Shown here: piece after piece, positions 11,401-56,900 of the stretch
Numbering within the stretch: position 1 is the stretch's first letter
How the letters are laid out: the number at the start of each line of letters is the position of its first letter
Position numbers and translations under genes: made by a program
The notes under the pieces: generated by a model
Database searches by the model: none
The model's input: the letters and a program-made list of their open reading frames with translations, nothing else
Told to the model about the DNA's origin: nothing
NCBI GenBank assembly: GCA_020055645.1
Contig: CM034550.1
Location: 6,877,501 to 6,941,500 of the forward strand
DNA from: Tomocerus qinae
Lineage: Eukaryota; Arthropoda; Collembola; Entomobryomorpha; Tomoceridae
Direction: 5' to 3'
Length of the DNA stretch: 64,000 nucleotides

Positions 11401-14400
11401 ACCTAGTGCAGAAAAGTAATTAGAAAGTGGAGAATATTAATGGAAAATTTTAATTAAATGTAATAATAGAAAGTTAAGACCATTTGACCTCTGAAGAATA
11501 ATTAAAGCAGACTTTTGCTGATGAGTAGTATATCAGCTGGTTGTACGGGCATTATATAATGAATTGCTGATATAATTTGAAATGGACAGTAGAGAGAATC
11601 AGAATGGTTCAAAACTAGCATAAAAGGAATCCTTAGAAAGCCATTGATGCATAACTTTGTTTTATACATGACTATAAAAGCTACGTGTAGGAAAGTAATG
11701 TGAACTGGAAAGGGATGGCAGTAAAGAGTGGAGGATTGAGTTAAAGTTTGTGAATTTACTTGAAAACGAGGAATATGGCCATAGCGATTGTGAGAGCACA
11801 GAGAGACAGGCAATAGCCGTAAAAGTAAACTCGGGTCGTAATTTCCAAGTTGTCTCCATCACCTATCGGTGGTGCTTCTTTTAGAGGTAGGCAACTGCTG
11901 TAATCTGATCGATTTTGCCAAGAACCGTTTTCTCCACAGTAGCGAGTTGCATTTCCTAAAAATGAATCAAAGAATTGCAATTAAAGAGACGCAAACCTTA
12001 TTAGGTATTCTATAATAATTTATTAATGCCAAAACTAAATTGGTAAATGGTTCATTCTATTTTATCGAACTATTATAAAGCTTATCACACAACAACTTGC
12101 TAAGTAATTGGATTATTGTTGGTGTAATTTAGTGGTTCGTATTGTATTGTGTCCTTCGCTGTGTCTATAAGTGAAAACATTTCGTGATTGTGAACTTTCA
12201 CCGTAAGAGAAAGTAATACTGGTACAATAATTAATCTTCTGTAGTAACTACTTCACAATAAACTGCATAGCAGGTAGTTAACCGGTATGAGTTGCTTTAT
12301 TAGTGTAGCGAAGGCAAGCAAAAAATTAAGACGACCATTTCATTGTCAAATCAATTAAGCTTAAACCATAAATCCTCAGCGGGGAAGCAGAACACAATCA
12401 ATTTCGCGTGTTTCCGCTCCTTCGACTGGAGTTAAAAACAAAATCCCTGTTAAGTACAAAATAAACTTTTTATATAGCCACTCCTATAAATAGAATAGAG
12501 GTCTAGATTATTCCATACTACTAGAAAAAGTATCTTGTGAATATAAAACTACGTATATTGTATATAGAGGGTCATGTACTACACAGTACTACTACACAAA
12601 ACAAAAGTTGTCACAATTAATTGGTTTATTCCTCTTGAAAATAAATCCAGATAGCCATTTTGAGCTTTGCATTTCTTAAATGTACATTATCATTGTAATT
12701 CTGAACATTTATATATTTGTAAGTCATCGAAGTGATAGAAAAGCATATTAATTTTACAAACATCGGTTGTTTTGCCGTAGAAGTAATGGAAATGGAGGAA
12801 TGGAGGATAAAGCTACATAGGACCAGTGATGGGCGTGAATTCATCTTGAGTCCCCCGCTAGCCGCTAGTCCATTGAACTCGTAACCCGGTGAAAAAGACT
12901 GGTCCCAATTTTTATCACACGCCGTTAAAATAAAGTAAAATCCTCACTAATTCCATCCATAGGTGAAAAATTAAATCCTATAGATATGCATCGACTGCCG
13001 ATCAGCCAGCAAAACTAGCTAGTAAATCGCAAGAAATGAGTTTTGAAAAAGAGATCTTGGATTGGACGAGATGCTCCGTCTACATGTTTGACCACTCAAT
13101 CAACGTAACAGAAATACAGCTTCCTAGAAAATACCCGGGAAGAGCCTTATAGAAAAAGTCGGTTTGGGTATTAACGACCAGCATAAAGACCTCAGATCCC
13201 TTAAGTCGCAGAAAGAATGGGCACAAATTTTTAGAGATTTTGAAGCTCGATGTCAAAGGAGTAGAATTTAGTATACTAAATATACCTTTAAGGAGCAGTT
13301 TCCCTCCGGGTTACCATTTGGCCAATTGGCGGTCGAGCTCCATTTATTGGATAACCCTAATGCAAACTTCTACCCTGCGTACAGCAGCTGGATGGATAAC
13401 ATGGAAGATATGGGTCTCCGAGCTTTTCGAAACGAACTCAACTTCCTGGGTCTTAAACGGACACCTAGTCATTATTCTATTTACGTCGAGTATTCCTTCA
13501 TTAACGTAAAGGGTGACCATAATTTACTTCATTCTTGAAAGAATTGCTTATAATAAAAATTAAAAAAATTGTAAAACGATAATTTTCGTCAAATGATTTA
13601 AAGCGCATTGTAAGTAAGTAATCATGTAATATGCAAAATAAAGTCCTCTCAGTCACGTGACCGTTAGTAAAGTCCTCCCAAAATCCATAGGTGATCATTA
13701 AGTCCCTTCAATAGTCTTCTGCAAAAAAGACGAACCCGGGACTCATCCCACGTCCTACACGTGAGTACTTATCCCATCCTACAAGTCCTCGTTTGCCCAT
13801 CACTGCTTAGGATAGAACATAACTAAGCTGAGCCACAATATGCACCTTTGAGATTTAGCTAAACAGCCTTTTAACGATGTACGAAATGTCAGAACAGACA
13901 TCAATTACAAAAAGGAAGAAATTTTCCATAGGGAACCTGTTGTGTGTCGAACAGTGCACCCACATCACCGTTTTATCCACAAAACTTTGCAATTACCTTA
14001 AATATAAAGATTACCCTTAAGAGGATTAACTTCCTTCTAGTCTTAAGATTACTTTTATTTCCTTAGTGAAATAAATCCTAGCAGCAGGATTCTTTTTATT
14101 ACTCGTCTCGCAAGATATTACTTCCCCTAGTCGGCTGTTTCAAAGAAATTACAGTTACACCGATTTCAGTATGTTTTAATTTTGTCGGAACTCTTTAATG
14201 GAAAAGGATTTACTGAAACTTTAGGCACTAGCTAGGTACAGTTTCAGAGGAAGACGGAATTGTGGAGATACATTTTGACGAGATGAGAATTATGCGAATG
14301 TGAACATGGTTGGTGAAACCAGCGAAAGCATAAAATAATCTCGTCTTTCCATCAATAAATTGGTTGTTGGTCTATGTCACAATGTCACAACTTGATTAAT

Positions 14401-42019: not shown

Positions 42020-44007
<1,988 letters not shown>

Positions 44008-45941: not shown

Positions 45942-48900
45942 TCAGCACAAGTCTTCATCGTCATTTACAAGGAATTGATAAATAAATGTAGCCTTTTGTC
46001 TTTCAATCTTGGGATTCGGTTTAGAATTGTGATTTTGATCCCGAAGCATTACTCGACCAAATAATAAAGCTGAAAAAGGGAAAACAATATTAGTTAGCAG
46101 AATTTTTATGGATGTCAGTCAAAGAAATGAATTAAATAAATTAAAATAAAATTTTACCTATTATTTTAGCGTCTAAACCATTCTTATCTGAATGTGTGAG
46201 CAATTCCCTCAAAAACGAACAGAGATATAAGAACACGTTTCGATGTGCGGGTGGCAACTGTTTTACCAGCTGTACAAGAAAATATCTTTCAGTTTTAAGA
46301 AATTCAAATTTTGATATTTAAAAGTAATGCAGGTTGCATACCTGTTTACAAGATATATAATTGGAAGATAAGTCAAGGCACTTTAAGTGCATCGAAAAAG
46401 GGACGACGGGTTCTGGGAAAGATTCTAACAGAAGTAAAATGCACTCCGCGATGGAGTCAACGCTTCCAGGAATAGTTGAGTTAGGAATGCTATCAAGCCA
46501 ATCACGAATCTGTAGAATTTCTTCGGTAAGACCCGATTGAGAAAATAAAGAATCTTTATCCATTCCAATTTTAAGTAACCGATCGACTAGGAACCATAAT
46601 TCTTTTGGAATGTCATAGTGGTTTACGGGCATACGGCCTTTCTCCTGCAAAGAGGTACAAGAATTTCAGAATATTGTTAGTTATTAGTAAAACAGTGTTT
46701 AACTAGTTATAGTGTCTTAACGAACCAGTTCTATCAGTTTTCCAGGTGATATCATCCCAATAGGTTCACTCATGTTGACCAAAGCGGAAATTGAGCAACC
46801 AAAAACACTTCTTTCAAAGTCTCCAGCAACAGTTATAAAAATATCTTTACCATGCTCTAAATGCAGTACTAAAATATCATAGAGTGTATCTTTCCCCACG
46901 TTCAAGTTCCCAGCACTTCTCTTATCTACTAAAACTTGCAATTCTATCTCACAGGTTTCACCTATACAAACAATTAAATAATTAATTACCATAATGTAAA
47001 AAGGATCCCTTACACATTTTTAGCTGTTGAGTATCAAGTATACTTACCAGGGTTTATAAATGCAGTAGTCGGTTCGATACGTAACCAATCCTTACAAATG
47101 TAGCTGTCATTTAATTTTTTGATGAACTCCAGAAGAACCGGAACCTATACATTAAAACAAAATAAAATTCCAAAAAATCTTTCAAAACTACTTATTATTT
47201 CTTAGTTATGAAATCCTGGTGAAAACCTACCTGCCCAGTGTTGGCAGCCGTAAACGTTTTCTTCACTGTCTGCAAAAACTTGACTCTGCCGAAATGAATT
47301 TCATTTCTATTTGAATGAGGAGCTAAATTTGATCCTGGGATATCTATCGTTACTTGCGGCAAGAATTCATTTTCTAATTTGTCCATTCTCTTAAGAGCAT
47401 CTTCGTAGACCCGTCTGTATCGTTGTTGATTTATTACTTTTACCTAAAATAGTACATTACACCTTAAGTAAAATGACACAAGAAACCTGACCTATTTTTG
47501 TCAGAAATATGCTTAATAGATTTCAGACTAACCTTAGTTGTGAATACTGAACAGACTGGTTTGTGATCACTTAATTTGTACTGCGTTAGAGATGAATATT
47601 CAGTTTGAGAAATATTGTCGCCTTTCCAGAGAATTCTGTCGCACCATGCGGGAGAACGATTCTTTTCACTAGAATCCCAATTGTCTGTACCAGGATCATA
47701 TTTGTATGTCGGTCTGAAATTAATAGGACCTTCGGTGAATCCAGGGAATACATGCTTAAGTCCCATTTGTTCTTTAAGCTGATCGTGATCCAAAATTAGG
47801 GAATATTTTTCTTTTTGTATTAGTACTTTGGCTTTCTCCGCGTCAATCTTAGATGGATCAATTCGGTAATTCATATCACCGAACCAAAATATTTGACTGC
47901 AAAAACATACATGAAATTAATTAAAATTGCTTAAAAAGTAATACTATAATGCGATACTAAACCAAACTTCATATTCATAATATAGAAATTATAAGCAGAG
48001 GAAAATAACATACGTACTCATGATCTTTGATATATTTGTTTCCTTCCAATAAAGGGAATATCATTCGGGATGATATTTGCTGAAAGTCTTGATTACGTCT
48101 GTAAAATTCTTCGACGTGGGCAGCTAGATGACAATTTACAAAGCACATAGATGTATCCTCAAGTTCGAACCTTACAGCAACCCCACCTTTGTTGCCCTAT
48201 AAAATCAAATGTCCAATAAATCCACAAAATATAGCATATTGTTAATCAATTGGTATTTACTAACTTACCATCTTCCCAAGAATTCCTGTGCCAACATATT
48301 CAAAAGCAATATTCTTCAATTCTTTACAGATCTCCTCTTTGGCAAAAACGATGAGCATCATTCCAACTAATCTGACTAGCTTCACTTTCTTATACTTTGC
48401 ACCAGCGTGAAGACCGGCTTTTACCGACCGTCTAAAAATACAAAAGTTTAGAATTGATAGACAGTTCAACATTAAAATGCTTATTTTATTCAAATAAACA
48501 TGTAGCACTGTAAAAATTTTAAAATCTCCAATATAATATGGTTTTTAATTTAGATATGCCGTTTTTAACGATAATGTAGTTAATTTGAAATTACTTGGTA
48601 GATAAATAGAAGTATAAGAGTAAAATTAGTTTAGTAGATACTTAAAATAAATCATTAGCTCATTCATAAACGATTTAAGTCGAAATTAATGAATACTAAT
48701 TGAAAAAAGGTAAGTAAAGGTCAAAATTTCACTTACAGCCATTCTGCTTCTTTGGGAGTGTCATTGAATAAAAACGTCTCTTTACTTAGATCGAGTTCTT
48801 GAAAGGCGACTGCATAGAAGTCTGGAGGGTCTGTTGTTTTAGCTAACCACTCCGTGAGACAAATACTTCCCGGACTCTGTCCATTGACATTCCATGTGGC

Positions 48901-53917: not shown

Positions 53918-56900
53918 ATGGAAGAAACGGAGAAAGAAGACTTTTTCCCCAATGTAGACCTCAGTGTCTGGTTTCGTTCTTGTCAAAAAGAAGTTGAAAT
54001 CCCTTTGGAAGGGAAAGTTACTTGCGGTAAGTCTATCTCTATCTGTATCTACTACCTTCTTCGGAAATTTACACCCAAACCAAAGGAAATGGACAGGAAA
54101 TGAGAAAGTTACGACCACTTCATAAATATAACTTGCAAGCAGCCGCTGCTAACTTTTCTATTCCGGTCGTTATATCTATCTAAAACCAAAAGTTAACTTG
54201 ACATGCAATGAAATAAACCTTCAACCTTCCTCCAAAATGTTTACCGCCACGAAGGCGTAATTACCATTTTCCGACTCTGTATATCTATCTAAGACACAAA
54301 TAACATATTTTGCTGATTTTAGAGGACCAATTAATAACTTGCCTGATGTGATGTTGTCAGTAGAATTGACAATATCCTTGTTGTTCTATCCTGAAAATTA
54401 TTTCCTAGGGACAAAGAAAACTTGTCCTACTGGCTGGAGAGTGAACTGTTTTTACGTCGGTAGAAAATATCTAGTTGAGAGGAGAAAATTAAATTCCTAC
54501 GGTTTATAGCGTCTATAAATAGGAACACAGCGGAAGCATTGTAGTTTAATGTAGCAGTAAAATGTTATGAGCTCTATTGTTTCAGAGAAAGTAGAAATGT
54601 AAGGTATTAAAGAAAGTTATTTTCTATCTATCACAGGAATAGTACCGCAGTGGCTCAATGGTTCATTAATTCGTAATGGACCAAGCGGCGTGGATGTCTA
54701 CGGCCCTGGTTCCTACAAACACTTATTCGATGCTCCAGGCTTTCTACAGAAATTCGAGATTTCCAATGGAACTGTAAGATACACAAATAGATTTATGAGA
54801 ACAAAGACTTTCAACCGAAATTTCGTAGCGCAGCGATTAGTGCTCAATGAGTTCGGCACAGCAGCTGTACCCGATCCGTGCCAAACTATTTTTCAAAGGT
54901 CAGATTTATTTACAAATTCCAATCAACACATGTTCATGAAAAAGAAAACAATATTCAATGAAAGGAATATTTTTGGAAATATGCAACACCTACAGAATTG
55001 CAGCCGTTTTCCTAGGACCAGTTGATGCAACATTGACCGACAATGCAAATATAAGTATTCACCCTTTTGGAGATGAAATATATTCTTTGGCAGAAACACC
55101 TTTTGCTCACAGAATTGATCTACAAACTCTGGATACTATCAACACGGTATGATTTATAGCGCATAAAACCCATGCTATTTAACATTGGAATTTGGAAACT
55201 ATATTTAACGCTCATTAGTGCAGCGTTAAACCTGTTAAGCCAGGGACACTTAGTCAGAGGTAGAAAATTGAGATTGAACTTTTTATACTTACTGATTTTT
55301 GTCAAGGTTATCGATTGGTATTTTCCTATCTGCAAAAACACAGTCTGATTTATTCGTAGTTTCATGAGACCTCTATAGTGCAATTCCGTCACGCACTAGT
55401 TGATTCTAAATGTCGAACACCGAACATGCAATGAAATAGTTTTTAGATATCCACAAACGAGCAAATCAATTAACCAACACGAAAGTATTCAATTTGCGAT
55501 TATATATTTCAACTAAACCACTCGCATTTAGATATGATATACATATTATTTAAACAGCAATGGTAATTACCTCTATAACAATTTAACAAATGTCTAAAGC
55601 ACTAGTACTTATACTAACACCACAAATAGCAATAGTATAGAATTATACTCATATCTGTGCTTTATCTATACACATCAAAAATGGGCTTAATATGGTAGTT
55701 GGTACCCTTTACATTGGATTAAACACAAAGTTATTCATGTATAACAGAACAGAACTACATTCACGAGCTATAACTGCTGGATGAAAAAATTAGACATACC
55801 TTTTTTTCCTGTTGGTAACTGCGCTTATCTACTTCAAAATAATTCTATCGAGTTTAGTGTCGAGTCTAGTATTTTTTCCCAAATAAATCAGAAGATATAA
55901 ATTAGGTACCTAAGCGTTTTTACACATAAATAGATACCAATTTACCTTAATAGGTACATTCACGGTATCAAGTCAGGTTGTGAGTGATGATGGTGAAAAA
56001 TGTTTAAAAATCACTAGGATTGTGAAAAACGTAGTTGAGGTTTAACCGCAAGCGGTTGGAACAAAGCACAAACTCCTTTTGAATTAACAACTTATAGGAG
56101 AAGATTTATGTGTATGATTTGCACGTGTGCAATAGTGTACAGGTAGGTATTTAATCAGAATTTTGAGATGACAGTTATTGTTATTACAATAAAGCTTAGT
56201 AAAAATGAAGTTTAAGCATTAGGCAGAGGAAAACTCATCTCTGTTGGTTTTATTACGCTATTAATCTTAACGTGAATCATGTTTCAAGAACATAAACCTA
56301 CAAAGAAAGTTTGAACCTCTGCAAATAACCATCGTACTTAGTCTAGCTGTGATATACGTCATACTACTAAATAGATGGTACCAAGTAGTGCTAAGGACTA
56401 GCCTCTAATGTTATGATTATGACACTAGACGAGTCAAGGCAAATGATCTCTATAAAGATCCTTTTTGATCACAGATATAAATTGCATACCATTCTCGTTA
56501 GTATTGTTATTAACTTTAAATGGACTAACACGAAGTACCATGTTTGATCTGTAGACAGATAATAATTACTACCATTAATAATTTGCAACTGGTATGGATA
56601 ATAATGTAAGTGCAATGCCAAACATAATCTAAATTGTAGTAGAAGCAGTGTGTAAGTAAAAGTGTATAAAAGACGTCTAAAAATAAGCAGGACTAGAAGT
56701 ACTATAAGAGATGTAGTCAAACGAGTAAAGATTTTAAACTGGCGAGAAGATACTCTTCTGAGATAACACGTTTAGGTACATACGACATGAATTATAAATC
56801 TCATACACATTTTTATCGCAATAAATCTCAAAATGTACAATTAAACACACTTGTACTATATCGTTCCATTAACTCTCGATAAAACTTTATGTTCCCGAAT

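Follow-up and report, generated by a model that had tools for sequence, protein, structure and literature searches.

hAT MITEs are characterized by short inverted ends, 8-bp target-site duplications, and subterminal repeats, and they possess no transposase of their own. In animals, host DNA copied between transposon ends has been described in the form of Pack-TIRs (Tan et al. 2021, Nat Commun 12:4280, PMC8277862). According to the portions of that paper considered here, hAT elements make up the largest Pack-TIR class (208 of 370), 160 of 281 Pack-TIRs lie within 15 kb of their parent, and single-copy animal Pack-TIRs arise mostly by gap filling without transposition. The same portions report no Pack-TIRs in insect reference genomes, and the one fly case that they give, Ssk-FB4 from D. 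melanogaster populations, is not a hAT element.

The element described here occupies 982 bp, at positions 12824-13805 of the window, by which we mean the whole 64-kb stretch of DNA that was analysed (C5:6877501-6941500 of a 334-Mb genome). Like the animal Pack-hAT elements in the portions of PMC8277862 considered here, it has both TIR ends, a target-site duplication, and copied non-TE DNA. Likewise, it resembles the animal Pack-TIRs described there in being single copy, in having relatives of its cargo elsewhere at three loci with no family ends in the DNA read around them, and in carrying that cargo on the same chromosome as the nearest genes. The Pack-TIRs in question are young and have a clear parent, whereas the focal element is old and its parent was not found, the best match being 85% identical over the coding part and the nearest intact genes 5.8 Mb away. 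An unambiguous parental copy, which those portions of the paper give as a criterion for the young set, was not found in this case; the focal element works like a Pack-TIR but falls outside that young, clear-parent set.

The preliminary description had likened the element to plant Pack-type transposons. The likeness holds insofar as a hAT element carries a piece of a host gene, and the plant Pack-TYPE elements, as presented in the part of Gisby and Catoni 2022 (PMC8903248) used here, are also non-autonomous DNA transposons with host coding DNA. It does not extend to mobilization: unlike in those elements, the captured piece is seen at one site and no shuffling is evident. Because the cargo matches elsewhere are genes without family ends, single-copy animal Pack-TIRs provide a closer comparison than plant Pack-TYPE elements. 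With hAT MITEs the focal element shares short inverted ends, 8-bp duplications, AAGTCC subterminal repeats, and the lack of a transposase, but a gene fragment has taken the place of its middle. Captures of this kind have already been described in animals, and the focal element is an old arthropod case that can be added to the animal Pack-hAT elements. We take the genome to be that of an arthropod on the strength of its 114 matches to the cuticle domain Chitin_bind_4. The mechanism is ordinary for animal genomes; the full-length relatives that bear an exonuclease gene are the more unusual part.

The focal element and its family

As the preliminary description had claimed, the element is bounded by inverted ends: CAGTGATGGGC occupies 12824-12834 on the plus strand, and its exact inverse (11/11) occupies 13795-13805 on the minus strand. 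The flanking 8-mers, CATAGGAC (cataggac) at 12816-12823 and CTTAGGAT (cttaggat) at 13806-13813, are identical at 6/8 positions, and "near-duplicate" is an apt term for this target site. By our own arithmetic, which assumes equal base frequencies, two random 8-mers would agree at 6/8 or more positions with p ~0.004. The right copy fits nTnnnnAn, which we take to be the hAT target consensus. The left arm (12824-12988, plus strand, right limit approximate) was delimited by blastn against family loci; its first ~92 bp can be aligned to family left ends, and the alignment extends to ~152 bp with L021. It is followed by an unassigned filler of ~40 bp (12989-13029, limits approximate and set by eye) and by the captured 3' part of a Methyltransf_22 gene (13030-13631, plus strand), which was recognized by DNA identity, tblastn, alignments, and Pfam analysis of intact genes. 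The right arm (13632-13805, plus strand) has many matches genome-wide, and we counted in it four AAGTCC subterminal repeats, also in agreement with the earlier claim.

The ends recur in the genome, as the search suggested in the preliminary description revealed. The left end CAGTGATGGGCGKGARCTCATC, with 3 or fewer mismatches allowed, has 49 matches and the right end CAGTGATGGGCAARCGAGAGGACT has 17, and the reversed-pattern control gave 0 for each. Of the 49 matches to the left end, eight come from a related young family that is discussed below. A shorter, 19-base left pattern was less specific, with 42 matches vs 21 in its control. Among the loci read, eight elements, the focal one included, could be paired by both family ends. 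The target-site duplications are perfect (8/8) for L014 (723 bp; gtatattc), L018 (818 bp; cttcagag), and C4:1233774-1242966 (9,193 bp; gtctacac), and they agree at 7/8 positions for L020 (504 bp) and at 6/8 for the focal element (982 bp), so that agreement is 7/8 or 8/8 in four elements and at least 6/8 in five. The remaining three have 5/8 or less: L012 (583 bp, 5/8), L046 (847 bp, 2/8), and L021 (552 bp, 1/8). The expectation of copies with 8-bp duplications is thus borne out by L014, L018, the C4 element, and L020, and not by L012, L021, and L046.

We looked for cargo in other family members among the paired elements only. The short siblings examined are rich in AAGTCCTC-like repeats, and the interiors of L014 and L018 consist of GC-rich inserts that, by eye, resemble other repeats and not genes. 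The other family loci have one recognizable end only, and no partner end was found in the surrounding DNA examined at the thresholds chosen. When the left 206 bp were used as the query, only the element's own locus was found; one candidate was scored, so this is a weak negative. A search with the whole element produced a left-end match at C3:49121612. We also considered, as a second cargo, an ankyrin-repeat frame in L032 (C2:643868), located ~230 bp inward from a left end, and did not count it. No right end was found within the 2 kb examined, and the AG splice-acceptor-like junction suggests an ordinary host exon, so that L032 is probably an element remnant adjoining such an exon.

The C4 element (read in L037 and then in L017 up to 4967) has both family ends, with AGTCC/AAGTCC repeats near each. 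On its minus strand it encodes a hAT transposase in several frames, including the C-terminal dimerization domain Dimer_Tnp_hAT (E 1.5e-12), and the terminal inverted repeats of the focal element are common to this transposase-encoding element. Based on the ends, the 8-bp duplications of the siblings, and the existence of a full-length relative with a hAT transposase, the focal element is a non-autonomous hAT-type element. A transposase like that of the C4 relative, acting in trans, would once have mobilized the family to which it belongs.

The methyltransferase fragment and its relatives

The cargo corresponds to element positions 207-808 and comprises the last ~170 codons of a methyltransferase gene, starting at about codon 106, together with the stop codon and ~93 bp of 3' flank. 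At the DNA level it is 82% identical to C5:1112865-1113468 and to C5:1134633-1135163, and 77% identical to C1:30417440-30417950. Each of these three loci contains an uninterrupted frame of 276-290 aa that matches Pfam Methyltransf_22 (E 8e-17 to 4e-18), a family that we take to be METTL24-like, and no family ends were found when 9.9 kb around each locus was read. In the genome as a whole, Methyltransf_22 was detected at 17 loci, all above the cut-off. When the 276-aa frame of L009 was compared with the whole window by tblastn, two stretches in 13027-13538 were matched in two frames (E 2.9e-61 and 1.6e-29), confirming that a METTL24-like coding fragment lies inside the element as had been claimed; one more match was at chance level (E 0.84). 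The intact METTL24-like gene that had been expected elsewhere is likewise represented by the three uninterrupted Methyltransf_22 frames, two of which are on the same chromosome as the focal element.

The reading frame of the cargo is broken near 13150, 13213, and 13286 by indels of 1, 5, and 2 bp, respectively, and Pfam gave no match in the four broken frame pieces tested. The fragment presumably has no function. A tblastn comparison with the 64-kb window did not find the first ~105 codons of the methyltransferase gene at any other place, and a PDB search with the methyltransferase gave nothing significant (best E 0.072). The nearest intact genes lie on the same chromosome, 5.8 Mb from the focal element. 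Over the coding part of the cargo the best identity is 85.2%, to L009, and no direct parent gene was found among the genome matches.

An AATAAA motif is present 13 bp after the stop codon of L009, and the homology between the cargo and L009 extends ~93 bp past the stop. The copied piece thus starts in the middle of a gene and passes a likely poly(A) site, which suggests that it was probably copied from DNA rather than from mRNA. The intact relatives have no intron across the stretch that matches the cargo. Judged by eye, the donor-like and the family sequence share ~1 bp where they meet on the right, and the filler obscures the left junction.

A genome search with the element and 500 bp on each side gave 35 matches among the best candidates scored. 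Among those best candidates there was no second copy of the element with its cargo and no match elsewhere to the 500-bp flanks. The preliminary description had proposed that the element may have spread methyltransferase fragments through the genome. This proposal is not supported, because one cargo copy was found at the sensitivity used; the other three matches are the genes without family ends.

Order of events and capture mechanism

Comparing the coding constraint of the cargo with the decay of the arms offers a way to ask if capture preceded insertion. Relative to the codons common to L009 and L010, the cargo shows, across 126 codons, 29 differences that are synonymous and 15 that are nonsynonymous, and the N/S ratio per site is 0.12 for the cargo, 0.10 for L011, 0.13 for L010, and 0.02 for L009. 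Its substitutions are distributed unevenly across the three codon positions (10/143, 4/151, and 15/87; p 2e-4). The N/S ratio of the cargo is within the range of the intact genes, suggesting that most of its divergence arose while it was still a gene, and we estimate from these ratios that neutral divergence since capture would be about 0-4%. The focal arms depart from the majority sequence of the siblings at 24/148 columns on the right (16%) and at 27/92 columns on the left (29%), the left figure being unreliable owing to gaps. Divergence among the siblings is 3-21% on the left (12 rows) and 3-31% on the right (9 rows; 3-14% once L018, with its insertion, is set aside), and the 16% of the focal right arm is therefore a small excess over most siblings (3-14%). 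Taken at face value, these figures indicate that the decay of the arms long preceded that of the cargo, which argues that the cargo was placed into a resident, already old element.

We consider it likely that the fragment was captured by gap filling into such an old resident hAT element. The order of events and the repair mechanism that we infer are as follows. A hAT element would have inserted long ago and begun to decay, and it is probably immobile now. A break inside it would have been repaired by template switching, with ~600 bp of a METTL24-like gene being copied into the gap and replacing the middle of the element. Gap filling is also favored because no second cargo copy was found among the best candidates and because single-copy Pack-TIRs are tied to this process in the portions of PMC8277862 considered here. 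Several observations weigh against it. The divergence of the arms may reflect a separate subfamily and not one old copy. The duplications are poor in three of the eight paired elements (L012, 5/8; L021, 1/8; L046, 2/8). The nearest intact genes are 5.8 Mb off, as compared with the 15 kb or less for 160 of 281 Pack-TIRs in PMC8277862, and no direct parent was found, identity over the coding part reaching 85% at best. Lastly, microhomology at the right junction amounts to ~1 bp, and the left junction lies behind filler.

The opposite order, in which capture came first, during transposition or replication in a Pack-TYPE or FoSTeST-like manner, and the loaded element then jumped as a unit, would fit flanks that are still 6/8 alike and a cargo that is not adjacent to the nearest intact genes but ~5.8 Mb away; a source of transposase also existed in the family. 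We nonetheless regard this order as unlikely, in view of the single cargo copy found and of a constraint on the cargo that was apparently lost recently relative to the decay of the arms. It is very improbable that the locus is a decayed local methyltransferase paralogue that came to lie between two unrelated hAT ends, with no single insertion and no capture. Such an arrangement would agree with the mostly coding evolution of the cargo and with the many single family ends across the genome, but one proper left end and one proper right end are present in the correct orientation, the flanks match at 6/8 positions, the first ~105 codons were not found elsewhere in the window, and the 500 bp on each side have no match elsewhere among the best candidates. 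A chance arrangement with no transposon at all, for which one might cite the two flank bases that differ and the broken frames without a Pfam match, has a negligible probability and is refuted by the 66 end matches genome-wide vs 0 in the controls and by the siblings with perfect 8/8 duplications.

An exonuclease gene in full-length relatives, and other loci

The C4 element encloses a stop-free 386-aa frame (C4:1234706-1235863, minus strand) in which Pfam recognizes a 3'-5' exonuclease domain (E 1.7e-30); an HRDC match falls just under the Pfam cut-off. Among solved structures, the frame is most similar to RRP6 (E 1e-28) and Exosome component 10 (E 1e-18). Eleven loci have the closest transposases, defined as those at least 62% identical to the C4 transposase; nine of them carry such an exonuclease gene, in every case within identified ends. 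The other two loci, C2:37914965-37915909 and C1:139529490-139530434 (62% identical transposase), have no exonuclease match within 15 kb, and in each a left-end match lies ~3.5 kb away. We count these two loci against a fixed partnership between transposase and exonuclease.

The related young family, with ends CAGTGATGGGCGGGAGCTCATC, comprises eight copies of 9.8-12.3 kb, in each of which the right end was located by pattern; this pattern has nine matches, one of them unpaired. The copies form two groups, within each of which identity over the first 3 kb exceeds 99%. For the copy at C1:37758500-37768319 (L044, L052), both ends were read and the duplication is 8/8 (acaggaat). A 23-bp minisatellite was also observed inside this copy. 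An exonuclease match lies between the ends in 8/8 copies, and the longest ones share 49% identity with the C4 frame. The transposase, measured over a 312-aa stretch, is stop-free in six of the seven copies with a full-length match and matches in two pieces in the eighth copy. The exonuclease match has stops in all eight copies, suggesting that the gene was probably dispensable for the recent spread of the family.

A third, distant lineage is represented by L053 (C1:10849400-10855900), in which a stop-free 381-aa frame with an exonuclease match (E 2.7e-27) and a weak HRDC match adjoins a hAT transposase. A TIR/TSD search found no element ends in the 6.5 kb examined at this locus. By eye, the exonucleases of L052 and L053 have a CCHC-like tail, which Pfam did not report.

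We observed an exonuclease match within 15 kb at 18 of the 49 loci similar to the C4 transposase, as compared with 0.43 expected. With the general hAT domain this was so at 17 of 117 loci, whereas 300 random placements averaged 1.2 and never exceeded 8. Some loci in both tallies are copies belonging to the same family. Seventy-eight of the 95 exonuclease places are not the closest such place, at up to 15 kb, for any of the hAT domains listed, though one of those 78, C2:58526988, is inside a young element.

We tentatively suggest, as a plausible if somewhat doubtful reading of these sequences, that the hAT lineage of the focal element includes members with an Rrp6/EXOSC10-like gene, which nine full-length relatives enclose beside the transposase, and that the gene product may have an accessory enzymatic role, such as trimming DNA ends at excision or degrading transposon-directed small RNAs. 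Such a gene adjoins hAT transposases in at least three diverged lineages, and its frame is uninterrupted in two of those read. An accessory role is opposed by the two further relatives without such a gene nearby and by the stops in the eight young copies. In the open-licence PMC literature, including the available portions of PMC3985635 and PMC3942097, we found no description of a hAT element with such an exonuclease gene. If the suggestion is correct, a cut-and-paste lineage has kept a host-type exonuclease, an unusual kind of accessory gene among hAT elements.

Elsewhere in the window, Pfam identified a proteasomal ATPase (42504-42953), an Exo_endo_phos2 match (47467-47916, minus strand) that is presumably of the inositol phosphatase type, and an RPE65-like match (54603-55022); judging from these domains, all three appear to be ordinary genes. 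Outside the window, at L027:7461-9899 (C1:453000-462900), we observed an uninterrupted 813-aa polyketide-synthase-like frame that has ketoacyl synthase and acyl transferase domains and reaches the end of the locus.
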